From: Rhodococcus sp. IITR03
GTDB taxonomy: Bacteria; Actinomycetota; Actinomycetes; Mycobacteriales; Mycobacteriaceae
Direction of reading: 5' to 3'
Assembly (NCBI GenBank): GCA_001017865.1
Contig: LATQ01000001.1
Span: 1,938,629 to 1,950,655, forward strand
DNA length: 12,027 bases
Made by a program: the position numbers and the translations under genes. How positions within the stretch are numbered: position 1 is the first letter of the stretch; every line of letters begins with the position of its first letter. Under the pieces are notes generated by a model that was not told the origin of the DNA, did not search any database, and saw only the letters and a program-made list of their open reading frames with translations. Positions 1,474 to 7,248 of this stretch are shown here, piece by piece.

Positions 1474-2736
1474 GGCGGCTGCTCGCCGACACCACACCGC
1501 TGCGCAACAAGGACTACGCCCGGCTGTGGTGGGCCGGGATCGTCACCGTCATCGGTGCACAGATGGCGGTCGTCGCCGTTCCTCAGCAGATCTACGAGAT
1601 CACCCGCAACTCTGCCTATGTGGGGCTGACCGGTGTGTTCGGGCTCGTGCCGCTCGTGGTCTTCGGACTGTGGGGAGGGGCGCTCGCCGACGCGATGGAC
1701 CGCCGCAAGTTGCTGCTCATCACCTCCACCGGTCTCGGCGTCACGTCCGTGTTGTTGTGGGTGCAGGCGGCGAGCGGGCTGAACAACGTGTGGGTGCTGT
1801 TGTGCCTGTTCTCGCTGCAACAGGCGTTCTTCGCGGTGAACCAGCCGACCCGCGCGGCGATCATCCCTCGGCTGCTGCCGGTAGGCAGATCGCAGCCGCC
1901 ACCTCGCTGAACATGACCGTCGTGCAGTTCGGCGCCATCGCGGGCCCGCTGTTCGCCGGGGCCCTCATACCCGTCGTGGGACTGTCCACCCTCTACCTGC
2001 TGGACGCGATCTTCCTGCTGGCCACGCTGTGGGCGGTGGTGCGACTCCCGGCGATTCCGCCGCTCGGCGAGGTCACCAAGGCCGGGCTGCGCGCGGTCTT
2101 CGACGGCTTCCGGTACCTGTCCGGCCAGAAGATCCTGCTGGCGTCGTTCGTCGTCGACATCGTCGCCATGGTGTTCGGGATGCCGCGTGCCCTGTTCCCG
2201 CAGATCGCCCACGAGTCGTTCGGCGATCCGGCGCAGGGCGGCTTCGCCCTCGGTCTGCTGTTCGCGGCGATGTCGGTCGGCGCGGTGGTCGGCGGCGTCT
2301 TCTCCGGATGGCTGCCGCGGGTGCAGCGCCAGGGTCTCGCCGTGATCGTGTGCATCGTCCTGTGGGGCGTGGCGATGGTCGGCTTCGGCGCCGCGGTGTG
2401 GTGGGCCGAGCCCGCCGGCAGCGGTCTGCTGCTGTGGGTCGCCCTGTTCTTCCTGGCGTTCGGCGGGGCGGTCGACATGGTGTCCGCGGCCTTCCGTTCG
2501 ACGATGCTGCAGACCGTCGCCACCGACGAGATGCGCGGCCGGTTGCAGGGCGTGTTCATCGTCGTCGTCGCGGGAGGACCGCGCATCGGCGACGTGCTCC
2601 ACGGCGCGCCGCGGCCGCGGCAGGAACCGCGGTCGCCGCGGCCGGCGGCGGCGTCCTCGTAATCGTCGGCACGCTCGTGTGCGTCGTCGCCTTCCCGGCC
2701 TTCGTCCGGTACCGGGTCTCACGCACTCTCGGATGA
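1470..2736 (+). CDS. MFS efflux transporter (MFS_3 / EntS-like), frameshifted
   Basis: Major facilitator superfamily membrane protein, about 422 residues when repaired and of the 12-helix drug/siderophore exporter type. The N-terminus [15 protein letters not shown] is the usual entry to helix 1 in this subgroup. The loop between helices 2 and 3 carries a motif A variant, [13 protein letters not shown]. Hydrophobic segments continue through [18 protein letters not shown] and [19 protein letters not shown] to a last helix ending in VCVVAFPAF, with the tail RYRVSRTLG. Frame 1470-1885 jumps at about 1886 (GTAGGCAGATC for GTAGGCCAGATC) and again near 2608 (one base lost in a GCGC-rich run). The GTG start shares GTGA with the pdxH stop. 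The 3' end overlaps the convergent serine-hydrolase gene by 18 bp. The substrate cannot be told from sequence; proximity to pdxH does not imply vitamer transport. Confidence 0.88.
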
Positions 2737-3665
2737 CGGACCTGCGGAGTCGCCCGGCAGGGGAGCACGCAGCTCGGTGACGGCGATGCGCGCGGCTTCA
2801 CCGATCGCAGCGTCGACGACCGGCAGTACGGGATCCGCGCGGGCGGCACGGGTGAACACTGCGACGGCGATCGGATACTCGCCGGGGAACTCGACGACCG
2901 CCACCTCGTTGCGGATGATGCCGATCGTGCCGGTCTTGCCTGCGATCGCGACCCCGCGATGCGGGAAGCCCGACGCGATGCGGTGCGGCCAGATCTGGGC
3001 GCGCATCACCTGCTGCGCGAAGGCGGTGCTCTCGGGCGAGAGCACCGAGCCCGACCACACGGCCTCGAGCAGCCGGGTCATCTCCTCCGGGGTGGTCGCG
3101 CTCGTGTAGGCCGGGTCGTACGCCGAGACGGTCCAGGCGGCGTCGATGTCGGTGAGCGCCCGGAACGCCTCGACGGTGGTGCGGGTGTCCGTCTCCTCGA
3201 CGAGGCGCTGATAGACGTCCGCCGTGCCACCGATGATCCGGGTCCGTGTGAGTCCGAGGCGCGCGAGCAGTTCCTCGACAGCGGTCGTGCCGATCTCGCC
3301 GAGCAGCACGTCGGCCGCCGCGTTGTCGGACACCGTCATCATCGATGCGGCCACGTCGCGTCGGCTCATCGTCACCGGATCCCGGAAGCTCGCGATCCCG
3401 GTCGGGCCGGGGGTGCAGTCCGACGGCACGATCCGCAGCTGCCCGGATGCGTCGAGCCGGCCTGCGTCCACCTCCGCGCAGAACGCGAGGAACAGCGGAA
3501 GCTGTACACCGACGCGAGCACCACGCGTTCGTCCCCGCGCACCGACAACATCGCCGCACGCGGATCCGAACACCGGCGGGCGTGCAGCCATCCCGTGCAC
3601 CCGGCATCCGCGAACACCGCCCGGATCCGGTCGACCGCACTGTCTCGCCGTTCCTCGCCGTTCAC
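2719..3665 (-). CDS. Signal-less serine hydrolase of the class A beta-lactamase fold (BlaB-like), one frameshift
   Basis: About 315 residues when repaired. It has the three penicillin-recognising motifs: S-V-Y-K near residues 52-55, S-D-N near 113-115 and K-T-G near 244-246. I find no ExxLN omega-loop Glu (Ambler 166), so efficient beta-lactam hydrolysis is doubtful. There is no signal peptide or lipobox (N-terminus [17 protein letters not shown]), so a cytoplasmic location is inferred. The SxxK lysine is visible only after restoring one base near 3504: TACAGCTT is read where TACAAGCTT (Y-K-L) is expected, and frame and motif return together. The GTG start overlaps the lysR stop as GTGA, so the two form a coupled operon. 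The pair resembles blaA-blaB of Streptomyces cacaoi, where BlaB is a penicillin-recognising-motif protein needed for beta-lactamase induction. Alternatively it is an ordinary member of the actinobacterial 'serine hydrolase' family (Pfam beta-lactamase 2) with another substrate. Confidence 0.85.
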
Positions 3666-4536
3666 CGGACCCGTTCCTTGAACAGCACGCGGTCGCCGGG
3701 CGTCGACGTGAGCACGACGTCGGCGTCGGCACGCCGGACGATGCGCACGGCAGGGCCAGTGCGGACGGAGCCCAGTCCAGCCAGGCCACGCCGGGCACCG
3801 AGTCGGGTGGTGAGGTCGACATCCCGAAGTGGGTACCGGCGGCCACGGCGGCGAGCACCGCGCGGTCGTCCGCCGCCGGGGTGGTCTCGACATCGAGTCC
3901 TCGTTCGCGCAGCAGATCCTGCACCGCGTCGAAGGCCGCGGGGTTCCCCGTCCGCGGCGGCGCGGCGAACGTCAGGTCGGAGAGCATCGGCAACCGGGGC
4001 CGGTCGGAGCGGGCGCTGCGGTGGTCGTCCGGCACGACCAGCCATCGCCGGAGTTTGACCACCGGTCCGGCGTCGAGTCCTTCGGTCAGGGCCGGATGTT
4101 CGACGACGGCGAGATCGCACATGCCCGAGCGGACGGCGTCGACGAGTTCGACGGTGCTCGCGGAACGCGTCGACACCGTCGCCTCACCGCGTCTGCTCAG
4201 AGCGGTGACGCACAGAGTGACCAGACGGTCGGGTAGTGCGCGGGTGGCACCCCAGTGCAGAAGACCCCGGGCGCGGGCGACGCGTCCGGCCTCGGCGAGG
4301 AAACGATCGGCGTCGTCGACGAGGAGACGAGCGCGGGGGAGCAACTCGGCTCCGGCGGGCGTGAGGACCGCTCCCTGCCTGGTGCGATGCACGAGTTCGG
4401 AACCGAGATGCTGCTCGATTTTCCGAAGTCCTTGTGACAGAGGAGGTTGCGTCATGTCGAGCACCGCTGCGGCCCGGCCGAAGTGTCCTTCCTCCGCGAC
4501 GGTGACGAAGAACCGGAGGTGGCGGATCAGGTCCAT
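3662..4536 (-). CDS. LysR-family transcriptional regulator (BlaA/AmpR-like position), one frameshift
   Basis: DNA-binding regulator of about 291 residues. The N-terminal winged helix-turn-helix is clear: [19 protein letters not shown], then [22 protein letters not shown] and LFxR-type wing residues ([16 protein letters not shown]), residues 1-65. The effector-binding domain follows, with [20 protein letters not shown] and [17 protein letters not shown]. One base is missing near 3745-3750 (CTGCCGTGCGC for CTGCCCGTGCGC); restoring it gives the ending [15 protein letters not shown] and stop at 3662. ATG 4536 fits the family start exactly, though no good Shine-Dalgarno precedes it, so the message may be leaderless. 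It is divergent from the class A beta-lactamase gene at 4704 across 167 bp and cotranscribed with the serine hydrolase. Regulation of the beta-lactamase is inferred from this arrangement only. Confidence 0.9.
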
Positions 4537-4703
4537 GGCAGGGGATTCAATCAGTACGGGCGGACGATTCGCCGACCCGGCGTGTCGCGCGGCCGGATCC
4601 CGTCCGTCGTTCCCGTCTCCAACAGCGGCGATAGTTTTTCCGACTCGTGCGGACGGCGGGTGGGTATTGGCGGGACGATTCCCGTCGGTGGTGTCCTGTC
4701 GGC
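4537..4703. promoter_or_regulatory. Divergent lysR / beta-lactamase control region with paired inverted repeats
   Basis: The 167-bp gap contains two copies of GGACGATTC, at 4562-4570 and 4673-4681, each close to one of the two start codons. Each copy sits inside a small inverted repeat: GGCG-N7-CGCC at 4559-4573 and CGGGA-N4-TCCCG at 4671-4684. LysR proteins usually bind T-N11-A dyads in such gaps; I find no clean T-N11-A dyad, so these repeats are only candidate operators. A short AT-rich run, GATAGTTTTTCC near 4630-4641, is the likeliest core-promoter patch, but I cannot assign hexamers. No strong Shine-Dalgarno precedes either gene. Confidence 0.45.
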
Positions 4704-5679
4704 ATGACACCCACCGATTCACTCCTCCGGAACAGATTGTCGCGCAGGGGTTTTCTCCAATCCGCCCTTGCCCTGTCCTCCGTCGCCGCAGTGGCGGCCT
4801 GCGGGTCGCAGGACGGTCCGGTCGACACGATCCCGTCGACGACGGCCGATTCGGTGCCCGACACACAATTGCTCGCCGCCGGTGTCGACGAGCGTCTCCG
4901 GGAGATCGAGGACCGCTACGCCGTACGACTCGGTGTGGTCGCGCAGTCGCCGGTGACCGGGCGCGTCCACACCTACCGGGCCGACGAACGGTTCGCGATC
5001 TGTTCTCCGTTCAAGGTCTACGCCGCCGCCGCGATCCTGCGACTCGAGGCGGAAGGATCCCTCCGTCTCGACGAGACCCTCCCGATCGACCCGGAGGACA
5101 TCGTCGTCAATTCGCCGGTGACCTCGGAACATCAGGGCGCGTACTGCCGATCGACCGGCTGTGCGAGGCCGCACTCACCCGCAGCGACAACACCGCCGGA
5201 AACCTGATGCTCCAACGGATCGGCGGACCCGAGGCCGTCACCGCCTTCGCCCGTTCCGTCGGGGACGAGACCACCCGGCTCGATCGCTGGGAACCCGAAC
5301 TCAACGAGGCGGCACGGGGCGACGAGCGCGACACCACCACCGCTGCCGGACTCGCCCGCGGCTTCCGGGAGGTGCTCCTCGGCCCGGGGCTGCCCGCTCC
5401 GCAACAGCGGACTCTGCTCGGCTGGATGCGCGCGACCACCACCTCGGACACCCGGATCCGCGGGGGATTGCCGCCGGGATGGACGTCGGCGGACAAGACG
5501 GGCGGGGGCAATCACGGGACGGTGAACGACGCCGGGGTGGTGTGGTCGCCGGACGGGCAACCGCTGCTGCTGGCGATCCTGTCGGACTCGACCACCGGTG
5601 ACCCCGACGCGCCCCTCGAGGCGCGCCCGTCGCGGAGACCACCGCCGTGCTGGTCGACGCACTCTTCGCCGTGCCGTGA
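4704..5679 (+). CDS. bla: Class A beta-lactamase, Tat-exported lipoprotein, two frameshifts
   Basis: Serine beta-lactamase, about 325 residues when repaired, expected to act outside the cell membrane. The N-terminus has a twin-arginine signal SRRGFLQ (residues 13-19), a hydrophobic stretch and a lipobox AVAAC with Cys near 33, predicting a Tat-exported, lipid-anchored enzyme. All class A motifs are present: S-P-F-K (101-104, Ser70/Lys73), S-D-N (161-163), the omega loop RWEPELNE with the deacylating Glu (about 197, Ambler 166) and Asn170 equivalent, and K-T-G (265-267, Ambler 234-236). One base is missing near 5144 (TACTGCC for TACCTGCC) and one near 5627 (in CGCCCGTC); with both restored the frame runs to TGA 5679, ending [10 protein letters not shown]. 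With the full catalytic set I expect activity on penicillins or some cephalosporins, but spectrum cannot be read from this. Divergent from the LysR gene that may control it. Confidence 0.93.
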
Positions 5680-5949
5680 GTACAGGGGCCGGCGTGGGGC
5701 ACCGATACGCGCAGATCCCCGCGTAACGACCTTGGTGAGACCCGGGTAGTATTGCCGCAGGTTATCGGCGTGTGCCGGCCTTGCGGCGCAGTCGCGGAGG
5801 GTGCGGGCGAGCGTTCGGAACCCACATGGACGACATACCGATCGGGGACTTTCGGCGGACCCTGCCTCAGCGCATACCCCGCGCTACGGCTAGGTTCTAC
5901 GTGAATGTCCGGAAGTTTCTCGTAGGTCTGAGCTTGAGAGGGATCCTTC
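5680..5949 (+). promoter_or_regulatory. Upstream region of gltA (270 bp, no clear gene)
   Basis: No convincing protein gene lies here. A hairpin can form from GCCGCAGG near 5755-5762 and CCTTGCGGC near 5780-5788 (eight of nine pairs, one bulge); it could end the beta-lactamase transcript or lie in the gltA leader. TAGTAT at 5747-5752 and TAGGTT at 5891-5896 are possible -10 boxes, neither with a good -35 partner. The gltA ribosome binding site GAGAGGGA is at 5936-5943. A 44-codon frame from ATG 5826 to TGA 5960 overlaps the gltA start and is discussed under findings. Confidence 0.4.
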
Positions 5950-7248
5950 GTGCCCGCTGAGAATGACACCAACCCCACCCTCAGCTACCCCGGTGGCGAA
6001 CACACGATGTCGATCGCCAAGGCGACGGAAGGCAATGACGGTATCGAGCTGGGCAAGCTCCTCGCGGCGACCGGGTACACCACCCTCGACCCGGGTTTCG
6101 TCAACACCGCCTCCACGAAGTCGGCGATCACGTACATCGACGGCGAGAAGGGCATTCTGCGGTACCGCGGATACCCGATCGAGCAGCTCGCCGAGAAGTC
6201 GACGTTCATCGAGGTCAGCTACCTGCTGATCTACGGTGAGCTGCCGACTGCGGAGCAGCTCGAGGTCTTCACCGACAAGATCCGCCGCCACACCCTCCTG
6301 CACGAGGATCTCAAGCGGTTCTTCGACGGCTTCCCGCGCAACGCGCACCCGATGCCCGTCGTGTCGAGCGCGGTCAACGCCCTGTCGGCGTACTACCCCG
6401 ACTCCCTCGATCCGGACGACTCCGAGCAGGTCGAGCTGTCGACGATCCGTCTGCTCGCCAAGCTGCCGACCATCGCGGCCTACGCCTACAAGAAGTCGGT
6501 CGGTCAGCCCTTCCTCTACCCCGACAACTCGCTGTCGCTGGTCGAGAACTTCCTGCGCATGACCTTCGGCTTCCCGGCCGAGCCCTACGAGATCGATCCC
6601 GAGATCGCTCAGGCGCTCGACATGCTGCTCATCCTGCACGCCGATCACGAGCAGAACTGCTCGACGTCGACGGTGCGCCTCGTCGGTTCCTCCGACGCCA
6701 ACCTCTTCACGTCCATCTCGGGCGGCATCAACGCACTGTGGGGCCCGCTGCACGGCGGCGCCAACCAGGCCGTGCTCGAGATGCTCGACGGCATCCAGAA
6801 GTCCGACGGCGACGTCAAGGACTTCGTCCGCAAGGTCAAGAACAAGGAAGACGGCGTGAAGCTCATGGGCTTCGGGCATCGCGTCTACCGCAACTACGAC
6901 CCGCGGGCCGCGATCGTCAAGAAGACCGCCGACCGCATCCTCAAGAAGCTCGGTGCGGGCGACGAACTGCTCGAGATCGCCATGAAGCTCGAAGAGGCCG
7001 CCCTCACGGACGACTACTTCATCGAGCGCAAGCTGTACCCGAACGTCGACTTCTACACGGGCCTGATCTACCGTGCGATGGGCTTCCCGGACCGCATGTT
7101 CACCGTGCTGTTCGCCCTGGGTCGCCTGCCCGGCTGGATCGCGCACTGGCGTGAGATGCACTCGGACCCGACCCTGAAGATCGGCCGTCCGCGTCAGATC
7201 TACACCGGTTACACCGAGCGCCCGTACACGTCCCTCGAGGAGCGCTGA
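5950..7248 (+). CDS. gltA: Citrate synthase, main TCA-cycle enzyme
   Basis: Forms citrate from acetyl-CoA and oxaloacetate. The protein is 432 residues, intact and full length, of the type I (hexameric, Gram-negative/actinobacterial) class: ITYIDGEKGILRYRGYPIEQLAE near residue 60, FFDGFPRNAHPMPV near 120, LHADHEQNCSTSTVRLVGSS near 225 (first catalytic His region), GALWGPLHGGANQ-like INALWGPLHGGANQAV near 260, GFGHRVYRNYDPRA near 308 (second His), YPNVDFYTGLIYRAMG near 363 (catalytic Asp) and GRPRQIYTGYTER at the end. The start is GTG 5950, chosen because GAGAGGGA lies 6 nt upstream and the N-terminus aligns with mycobacterial GltA2. This is one of the few genes here without a reading-frame break. 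The FKBP gene follows 50 bp downstream, probably in the same transcript; a gltA-fkbA order is also known in Corynebacterium. Confidence 0.98.
   Translation: MPAENDTNPTLSYPGGEHTMSIAKATEGNDGIELGKLLAATGYTTLDPGFVNTASTKSAITYIDGEKGILRYRGYPIEQLAEKSTFIEVSYLLIYGELPTAEQLEVFTDKIRRHTLLHEDLKRFFDGFPRNAHPMPVVSSAVNALSAYYPDSLDPDDSEQVELSTIRLLAKLPTIAAYAYKKSVGQPFLYPDNSLSLVENFLRMTFGFPAEPYEIDPEIAQALDMLLILHADHEQNCSTSTVRLVGSSDANLFTSISGGINALWGPLHGGANQAVLEMLDGIQKSDGDVKDFVRKVKNKEDGVKLMGFGHRVYRNYDPRAAIVKKTADRILKKLGAGDELLEIAMKLEEAALTDDYFIERKLYPNVDFYTGLIYRAMGFPDRMFTVLFALGRLPGWIAHWREMHSDPTLKIGRPRQIYTGYTERPYTSLEER

Follow-up and report, generated by a model that had tools for sequence, protein, structure and literature searches.

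The locus described here raises the question of how a putative beta-lactam receptor that lacks a signal peptide meets its drug. It lies in a stretch of 12,027 nucleotides from Rhodococcus sp. IITR03 (contig LATQ01000001.1, positions 1,938,629 to 1,950,655; hereafter the window), in which the gene for a class A beta-lactamase, bla, diverges from a two-gene unit encoding a LysR-type regulator and a leaderless serine hydrolase that resembles BlaB of Streptomyces cacaoi. Sequence comparison of intact relatives points to a cassette in which a coupled LysR and a BlaB without Glu166 face a divergent bla, with a conserved operator-like site. We think it likely that, in a Rhodococcus near R. pyridinivorans, a BlaA/BlaB-type pair controls this chromosomal, beta-lactam-inducible bla locus, and that BlaB would be its cytosolic covalent sensor. 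The parts of the cassette in the window are:

4704..5679, plus strand: bla, class A beta-lactamase (ATG at 4704; frame-broken here, intact in G001)
3662..4536, minus strand: lysR (BlaA-like), LysR-type regulator (ATG at 4536, stop at 3664-3662; Pfam)
2719..3665, minus strand: blaB-like gene, leaderless protein of class A fold (GTG start at 3665; Beta-lactamase2 match)
4537..4703, no strand: divergent lysR-bla intergenic region, 167 bp (ATG-to-ATG gap; 0 indels against G001, the nearest genome compared)
4630..4670, read on the minus strand: putative operator CCAATA-N31-TATC (34-74 bp before the bla ATG)

A first-pass annotation, made from the letters alone, had described a lysR gene GTGA-coupled to a signal-less serine hydrolase and divergent by 167 bp from a complete class A enzyme. 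The coupling is there, with the lysR stop and the blaB-like GTG start overlapping at 3665-3662 on the minus strand, and the ATGs at 4536 and 4704 give the spacing. Completeness holds for bla in G001 rather than in the window, where the gene is spread over three frames, the first holding SPFK, another SDN and KTG, and yet another the C-terminal end. Likewise, the three penicillin-recognizing motifs ascribed to the hydrolase are present across reading frames, not in one, owing to a frame shift near SxxK. With a further shift near the 3' end of lysR, none of the three window genes is a single open frame, and the breaks are single-base indels.

These breaks look like sequence errors rather than real loss. 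The window is 99.2% identical to G001 over 11.7 kb, and 15 of the 16 indels that separate them fall within runs of a repeated base. They are also spread over unrelated genes, with two in pdxH, two in a major facilitator superfamily (MFS) gene, one in blaB, three in lysR, two in bla and the rest in other stretches; the broken state of the first two, which lie beside the cassette, fits such errors:

750-1910 and 2029-2736: pdxH and MFS genes adjoining the cassette, both frame-broken

The 3' end of the blaB-like gene overlaps the end of the convergent MFS gene by 18 bp. Since the window genes are frame-broken, we ran the analyses on intact relatives, taking bla and BlaB from G001 and lysR from G007; the window frames were left uncorrected. 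The bla and BlaB frames are intact in G001, a lysR of 291 residues and BlaB in G007, and BlaB in R. pyridinivorans, while all three genes are free of internal stops in G006, G016 and G002.

Two members of the cassette, bla and lysR, are readily assigned. The G001 copy of bla scores 276.6 bits against the NCBIfam bla_class_A cut-off of 200 and carries SPFK, SDN, RWEPELN and KTG; score and motifs together make it a class A enzyme, and by eye its N-terminal leader (RRGFL...ACG) is of twin-arginine or lipoprotein type. The open 239-residue stretch of LysR in the window matches both Pfam HTH_1 (7.2e-21) and LysR_substrate (1.1e-13).

The blaB-like gene required more comparison. Its G001 product matches Pfam Beta-lactamase2 (1.1e-47) but stays at 106.4 bits, where class A requires 200; its best sequence match in the PDB is 2WUQ, the S. 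cacaoi BlaB (4.2e-19), followed by LRA-5 (3.3e-17). A profile of 24 Rhodococcus and Nocardia BlaB sequences, with no S. cacaoi-type row among them, again places 2WUQ first (90.7 bits, profile positions 12-297, nearly the whole length), ahead of partial matches to 4EWF (79.5 bits), PBP-A (76) and LRA-5 (72). PBP-A (Tll2115), LRA-5 and 4EWF, all of class A fold, are thus among the nearest solved structures and rank behind 2WUQ. The R. pyridinivorans homologue, as modeled by AlphaFold (predicted local distance difference test score 91.7), likewise returns 2WUQ as its first Foldseek match (7.5e-20), a structural ranking that does not discriminate, because class A enzymes are tied with 2WUQ within about one Z unit. 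Hidden Markov models (HMMs) were compared as well: an S. cacaoi-type HMM outscores an HMM of neighboring class A enzymes for all 84 BlaB proteins that are not of S. cacaoi type, and the class A HMM is the higher for the three class A control enzymes. LRA-5 sides with class A, scoring 159.7 bits against a class A row of the tree.

In a tree of 103 rows, 87 BlaB proteins separate from 16 class A enzymes (13 neighbors and three from other phyla) with 100/100 support; L145, L187, L188 and L146 are flagged as long rows. The serine hydrolase, represented by its G001 copy, is accordingly placed by sequence in the BlaB family, to the exclusion of the class A enzymes in a tree to which PBP-A and 4EWF do not belong. 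Whether it would group with unrelated families had been named as a test of the first proposal, and it groups with S. cacaoi BlaB rather than with the class A enzymes compared. The kinship has limits, in that the 14 rows of S. cacaoi type make up a separate clade (support 100/100) on a long stem (1.69), with the window lineage outside it, and the window protein is about 26% identical to S. cacaoi BlaB. Its nearest named relatives are in Rhodococcus pyridinivorans (97%), three other Rhodococcus (78-90%) and then mostly Nocardia.

Individual residues say more about what such a protein could do. Among 121 BlaB sequences, the nucleophilic serine is present in 120 and the lysine, SD and K[ST]G in all. 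What they lack is the deacylating glutamate: Glu occupies the Glu166 column in two of 121, never together with Asn170, as opposed to 65 of 65 neighboring Bla. Glu within three columns of 166, followed four columns later by Asn or Ser, is present in four of 121. In the window's family, Thr fills the column in 35 of 45. W204, R229, F234, E254 and R300 are near-invariant in BlaB (each in 120 or more of 121) and usually replaced by other residues in Bla, apart from R229, which is Arg in 39 of 65 Bla too. BlaB therefore falls short of class A on Glu166 as well as on score, and the possibility that it is a plain second beta-lactamase was ruled out by the class A score, the HMM contest and the missing Glu166.

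BlaB is also predicted to lack a signal peptide and to reside in the cytosol, a prediction drawn from hydropathy and from the space ahead of the nucleophile. Over the first 35 residues the median hydropathy is 0.63 and the highest 1.51 (105 of 105 sequences below 1.6), against 1.61 for the G001 Bla leader and 2.35 for BlaL; the contrast is narrow because the G001 leader reaches only 1.61. In 90 loci the lysR stop leaves only 36-67 residues for BlaB ahead of its nucleophile.

The arrangement recurs widely. We compiled 80 loci, 47 from the window's family and 33 from elsewhere in the class, chosen among the strongest matches rather than exhaustively. LysR lies directly upstream of and co-directional with blaB in 68 of them, and the neighbors of those 68 are a divergent class A bla (31), a divergent penicillin-binding protein (PBP) gene (14), a downstream PBP gene (10) or neither within 600 bp (13). 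Labels came from tblastn with a few Bla and PBP queries, so the last group may hide other partners. In the remaining 12 loci, lysR is divergent from blaB (5) or has no match (7); L138-L140, L143 and L144 form a subgroup with the divergent orientation. Within the genus, BlaB occurs in 8 of 18 genomes, strong Bla (E <=1.2e-76) and LysR (E <=1e-40) matches in the same 10 of 18, and Bla matches at E <=1e-3 in 13, three of these being fragments (E 6e-32 to 1e-7). The gene order, whose conservation across Rhodococcus and Nocardia the first-pass annotation had asked about, thus returns in other genomes of genus and family. A layout unique to this strain is ruled out by that recurrence, which extends to wider actinomycetes. 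In Rhodococcus sp. HNM0563 (G012, L070; protein P0129) the LysR effector domain and BlaB share one 470-residue frame, which may be a genuine fusion or the result of a frame error.

CCAATA-N31-TATC, between lysR and bla, is a candidate operator. The pattern was chosen after inspection, the counts allow N30-33, and five loci without an upstream region, including that of S. cacaoi (L149), do not enter them. The window carries the pattern exactly, as do 19 of the 31 bla loci that are Rhodococcus/Nocardia-like; with up to one mismatch allowed, that number is 21. An exact copy is present in 1 of the 16 loci with a divergent PBP (10 with at most one mismatch) and in 4 of 11 pairs without an identified output (6 with at most one mismatch). 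Shuffled regions contain it in 0.03-0.28 loci on average and in at most two per group, with an average of 0.1 loci for the Rhodococcus/Nocardia-like bla set. Upstream of lysR in operon-type PBP loci it occurs in 0 of 13. These loci carry a different element, the T-N11-A palindrome ATAGCG-N3-CGCTAT, placed between blaB and the PBP gene in 9 of 13 and absent from the rest of the 1.01 Mb of loci. Both operator-like patterns therefore sit in the gap that adjoins the output gene, be it bla or pbp. For S. cacaoi-type upstream regions among the matches listed, CCAATA-N31-TATC appears in 1 of 34, with one mismatch, and CCAATA alone in 13 of 34. A scan of upstream regions for palindromic T-N11-A sites (5 or more of 7 pairs complementary) gave scattered matches only, none of them in the window.

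The two genes of the pair have diverged together, and their neighbor varies. Pairwise identities of LysR and BlaB correlate closely in loci not of S. cacaoi type (r = 0.94, 70 loci), those of Bla and BlaB less so (r = 0.51, 30 loci). The contrast is smaller within groups, at 0.92 against 0.79 for 13 Nocardia-like loci and 0.89 against 0.82 for 31 S. cacaoi-type loci among the matches listed; none of 2000 permutations reaches any observed r. Four LysR with a stop or of short length (L065, L105, L162, L169) were left out. Across the 13 Nocardia-like loci, BlaB identity never drops below 73%, whereas Bla identity goes as low as 33%, which suggests that a single pair has had its bla gene replaced. 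At least five changes of the Bla or PBP label are required on the BlaB tree (33 Bla rows, 28 PBP, 26 unlabeled). The proposal that all bla-linked pairs form a single clade was rejected by the approximately unbiased test (p 1e-48); uniting only the S. cacaoi type with the Rhodococcus/Nocardia type is rejected more weakly (p 0.025), with a long stem involved. With class A enzymes as outgroup, the first BlaB branch is PBP-linked and the rest are supported at 91/85, so PBP may be an older partner of the pair than bla.

Plasmids offer further examples of the PBP association. Among 20 records, six actinomycete BlaB loci were opened, and a PBP adjoins the pair in four: PBP2M in Corynebacterium diphtheriae and transpeptidases in another Corynebacterium, Tsukamurella and Streptomyces. 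In Nonomuraea the BlaB locus has no annotation. On the Dermacoccus abyssi plasmid (L189), short LysR and hydrolase pieces at 4156-6638 are followed by a vanY-like M15 peptidase gene, possibly a third kind of neighbor or possibly a sign of a broken locus. Of ten neighboring PBPs scanned, six carry a MecA_N domain at or above the Pfam cut-off; these stand beside LysR-BlaB in L148 (1759-3411), L119, L124, L125, L130 and L103, the last exactly at the cut-off.

LysR-BlaB would, on this reading, be a detachable sensor module that serves bla or a PBP gene depending on the lineage. We lean, by a modest measure, toward a broader view: that it is one exchangeable, family-wide actinomycete module for sensing beta-lactams, with the role that BlaR1 and MecR1 play in firmicutes, placed first on a MecA-like PBP and recruited several separate times to class A bla (in Rhodococcus/Nocardia, S. 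cacaoi and others), such that the S. cacaoi circuit and the Corynebacterium pbp2m/pbp2c unit would be the same switch. What is newer here is the link between the bla and pbp cassettes; the sensor-pair kind itself is already known. Were the bla and pbp2c/pbp2m pairs one module, 2WUQ and a harmless environmental Rhodococcus could serve as models for resistance switching in Corynebacterium.

A mechanism can be sketched by analogy with BlaCor (jk0411), the BlaB-family protein of that Corynebacterium unit. In PMC11111852, BlaCor is reported to bind clavulanate and ampicillin covalently, Ser45Ala to abolish binding, and nitrocefin to escape hydrolysis; C. glutamicum carrying jk0410-jk0411-pbp2c makes Pbp2c upon clavulanate, an inducer described there as strong yet without antibacterial activity. 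Acylation without nitrocefin hydrolysis is documented for BlaCor, and we infer the same for Rhodococcus BlaB. Drug would acylate BlaB in the cytosol, and the adduct would probably persist because the deacylating Glu166 is missing. The acylated protein would then alter the co-translated LysR, by direct contact or, less likely, via a ligand, and LysR would switch on bla at the intergenic region that the two genes share. Signaling from BlaB to LysR is conjecture in all of these systems; the same source calls the induction mechanism yet to be discovered.

The AmpR circuit senses cell-wall state, and a comparable arrangement could be imagined here, with BlaB a cytosolic muropeptide hydrolase that makes or removes a LysR ligand and is inhibited by beta-lactams. 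LysR does keep its substrate-binding domain; BlaB is cytosolic by sequence, its near-invariant W204, R229, F234, E254 and R300 could hold a ligand or a partner, and the Dermacoccus locus has its VanY-like M15 metallopeptidase gene behind the pair. Against this, the stretches viewed around the other four annotated plasmid loci contain no annotated peptidoglycan-recycling genes. In addition, the strong induction by clavulanate in Corynebacterium and the direct binding of drug by BlaCor favor direct drug sensing over cell-wall damage (PMC11111852). A muropeptide hydrolase is, on balance, unlikely.

Several observations weigh against the proposed sensor pair as the governor of bla. G003 (L191) and G013 (L192) have the divergent bla and lysR with no blaB. 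In G001 (L065), lysR has a stop in its helix-turn-helix part and the BlaB nucleophile is changed from Ser to Ala, while bla is intact. PBP-A and 4EWF, as noted, fall outside the tree that separates BlaB from class A. Finally, in PMC11111852 induction was tested with jk0410 and jk0411 together, never separately. As for the blaB-less relatives themselves, an opposite-strand frame, MFS-like by eye, follows lysR in place of blaB in both; G013 has an exact copy of the operator-like site and G003 a partial one.

The absence of blaB from those two genomes, and a published test in which the two regulator genes stayed together, would suit a BlaB that acts as another beta-lactamase or serine hydrolase, leaderless and with an enzymatic job of its own, leaving LysR alone to regulate bla; Pfam and NCBIfam do place BlaB in the beta-lactamase superfamily. 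A Glu166 column that is not Glu in 119 of 121 sequences, the low class A score and the reported failure of BlaCor to hydrolyze nitrocefin (PMC11111852) speak otherwise, as do BlaB identities that track those of LysR and the presence of BlaB beside PBP genes too. We consider an independent enzyme very improbable.

A second alternative is that the cassette is decaying in this lineage, with bla constitutive or silent and the pair out of use. The broken frames of the window and the two lesions of G001 would fit such a history, and others could be read likewise: in G007 (L066), a single-contig genome, bla (3480-4455) is split over two frames near residue 255; the cassette of G009 (L193) has decayed to remnants, at 1856-2747, of bla and of lysR residues 1-42; G010, whose assembly is 75% complete, has cassette fragments; and in G011 (L069) bla and lysR are 1.5 kb apart, separated by a TnpB-type (OrfB_IS605) gene at 1981-3129. 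Yet the window indels lie almost entirely in base runs and affect unrelated genes, stop-free sets persist in G006, G016 and G002, and the R. pyridinivorans BlaB cluster numbers 96 members with the nucleophile present in its representative. Decay strikes us as distinctly unlikely, and a functioning BlaA/BlaB-type pair remains our preferred account of the locus.

Among known systems, the closest is that of S. cacaoi, where BlaA, of the LysR family, and BlaB reportedly activate blaL. The locus of S. cacaoi NBRC 12748 was found with the 2WUQ residues at 100% identity, and 36 further named loci were listed, for a total of at least 37. Its BlaL gene is divergent from blaA, whose stop overlaps the blaB start, reproducing the order and the overlap of the window; S. 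cacaoi BlaB is likewise leaderless, with SxxK, SDx and KTG and without Glu166, as in the Rhodococcus relatives. It differs in reading SDG in place of the SDN of the Rhodococcus type and in its separate subclade, and its BlaA has no LysR_substrate match in Pfam. Of the S. cacaoi-type loci among the matches listed, 32 of 37 have a divergent bla, one a divergent PBP and four neither within 600 bp. The 2WUQ grouping and the identical order in NBRC 12748 bear out the initial suggestion that the window holds the same kind of cassette. Its placing outside Streptomyces was correct as to layout and fails as a novelty, the Corynebacterium pbp2m/pbp2c-blaB-lysR unit having been published already.

The pbp2m-blaB-lysR unit is described in PMC7694903, on Corynebacterium, and PMC10569726. 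The pbp2c/pbp2m unit of Corynebacterium comprises lysR (jk0410), BlaCor (jk0411) and Pbp2c (jk0412), with the PCU on C. diphtheriae plasmids, and like the window it has LysR followed by a BlaB-family protein; unlike the window, it has as its output no divergent bla but a class B PBP that lies downstream and is co-directional. The BlaB from the C. diphtheriae plasmid has the length and motif positions published for BlaCor (276 residues; 45, 106 and 220) and is very diverged, with an end branch of 1.49 in the tree. The main text of PMC11111852 contains no words beginning "cacaoi", "BlaB", "Rhodococcus" or "Nocardia"; PMC3610667 cites 2003 work whose title names S. cacaoi BlaB a penicillin-binding protein; and "BlaB1" in PMC9146315 is a metallo-enzyme and unrelated. 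We found no publication that connects the system of S. cacaoi with that of Corynebacterium, and none on the pair in Rhodococcus, in a search that left subscription journals largely uncovered. PADLOC gave no match.

More distant parallels set the cassette apart, as first proposed, from the two best-known circuits. In AmpR-AmpC, a LysR regulator is divergent from a class C beta-lactamase gene. The divergence is shared, whereas here the enzyme is of class A and a coupled BlaB partner follows lysR. BlaR1 and MecR1 are membrane sensors of class D fold with a peptidase, and serve both bla and low-affinity PBPs. The three BlaI (PF03965) matches of G001 lie at C1:3.06 Mb and on C3, away from the locus at C1:1.057 Mb; BlaR1 was not searched for. 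With the BlaR1-BlaI and MecR1-MecI systems the cassette would share a covalent sensor of beta-lactamase fold and the use of one sensor type for both bla and PBP, but BlaB, unlike those membrane sensors, appears to be cytosolic, has the class A fold and is paired with a LysR regulator.

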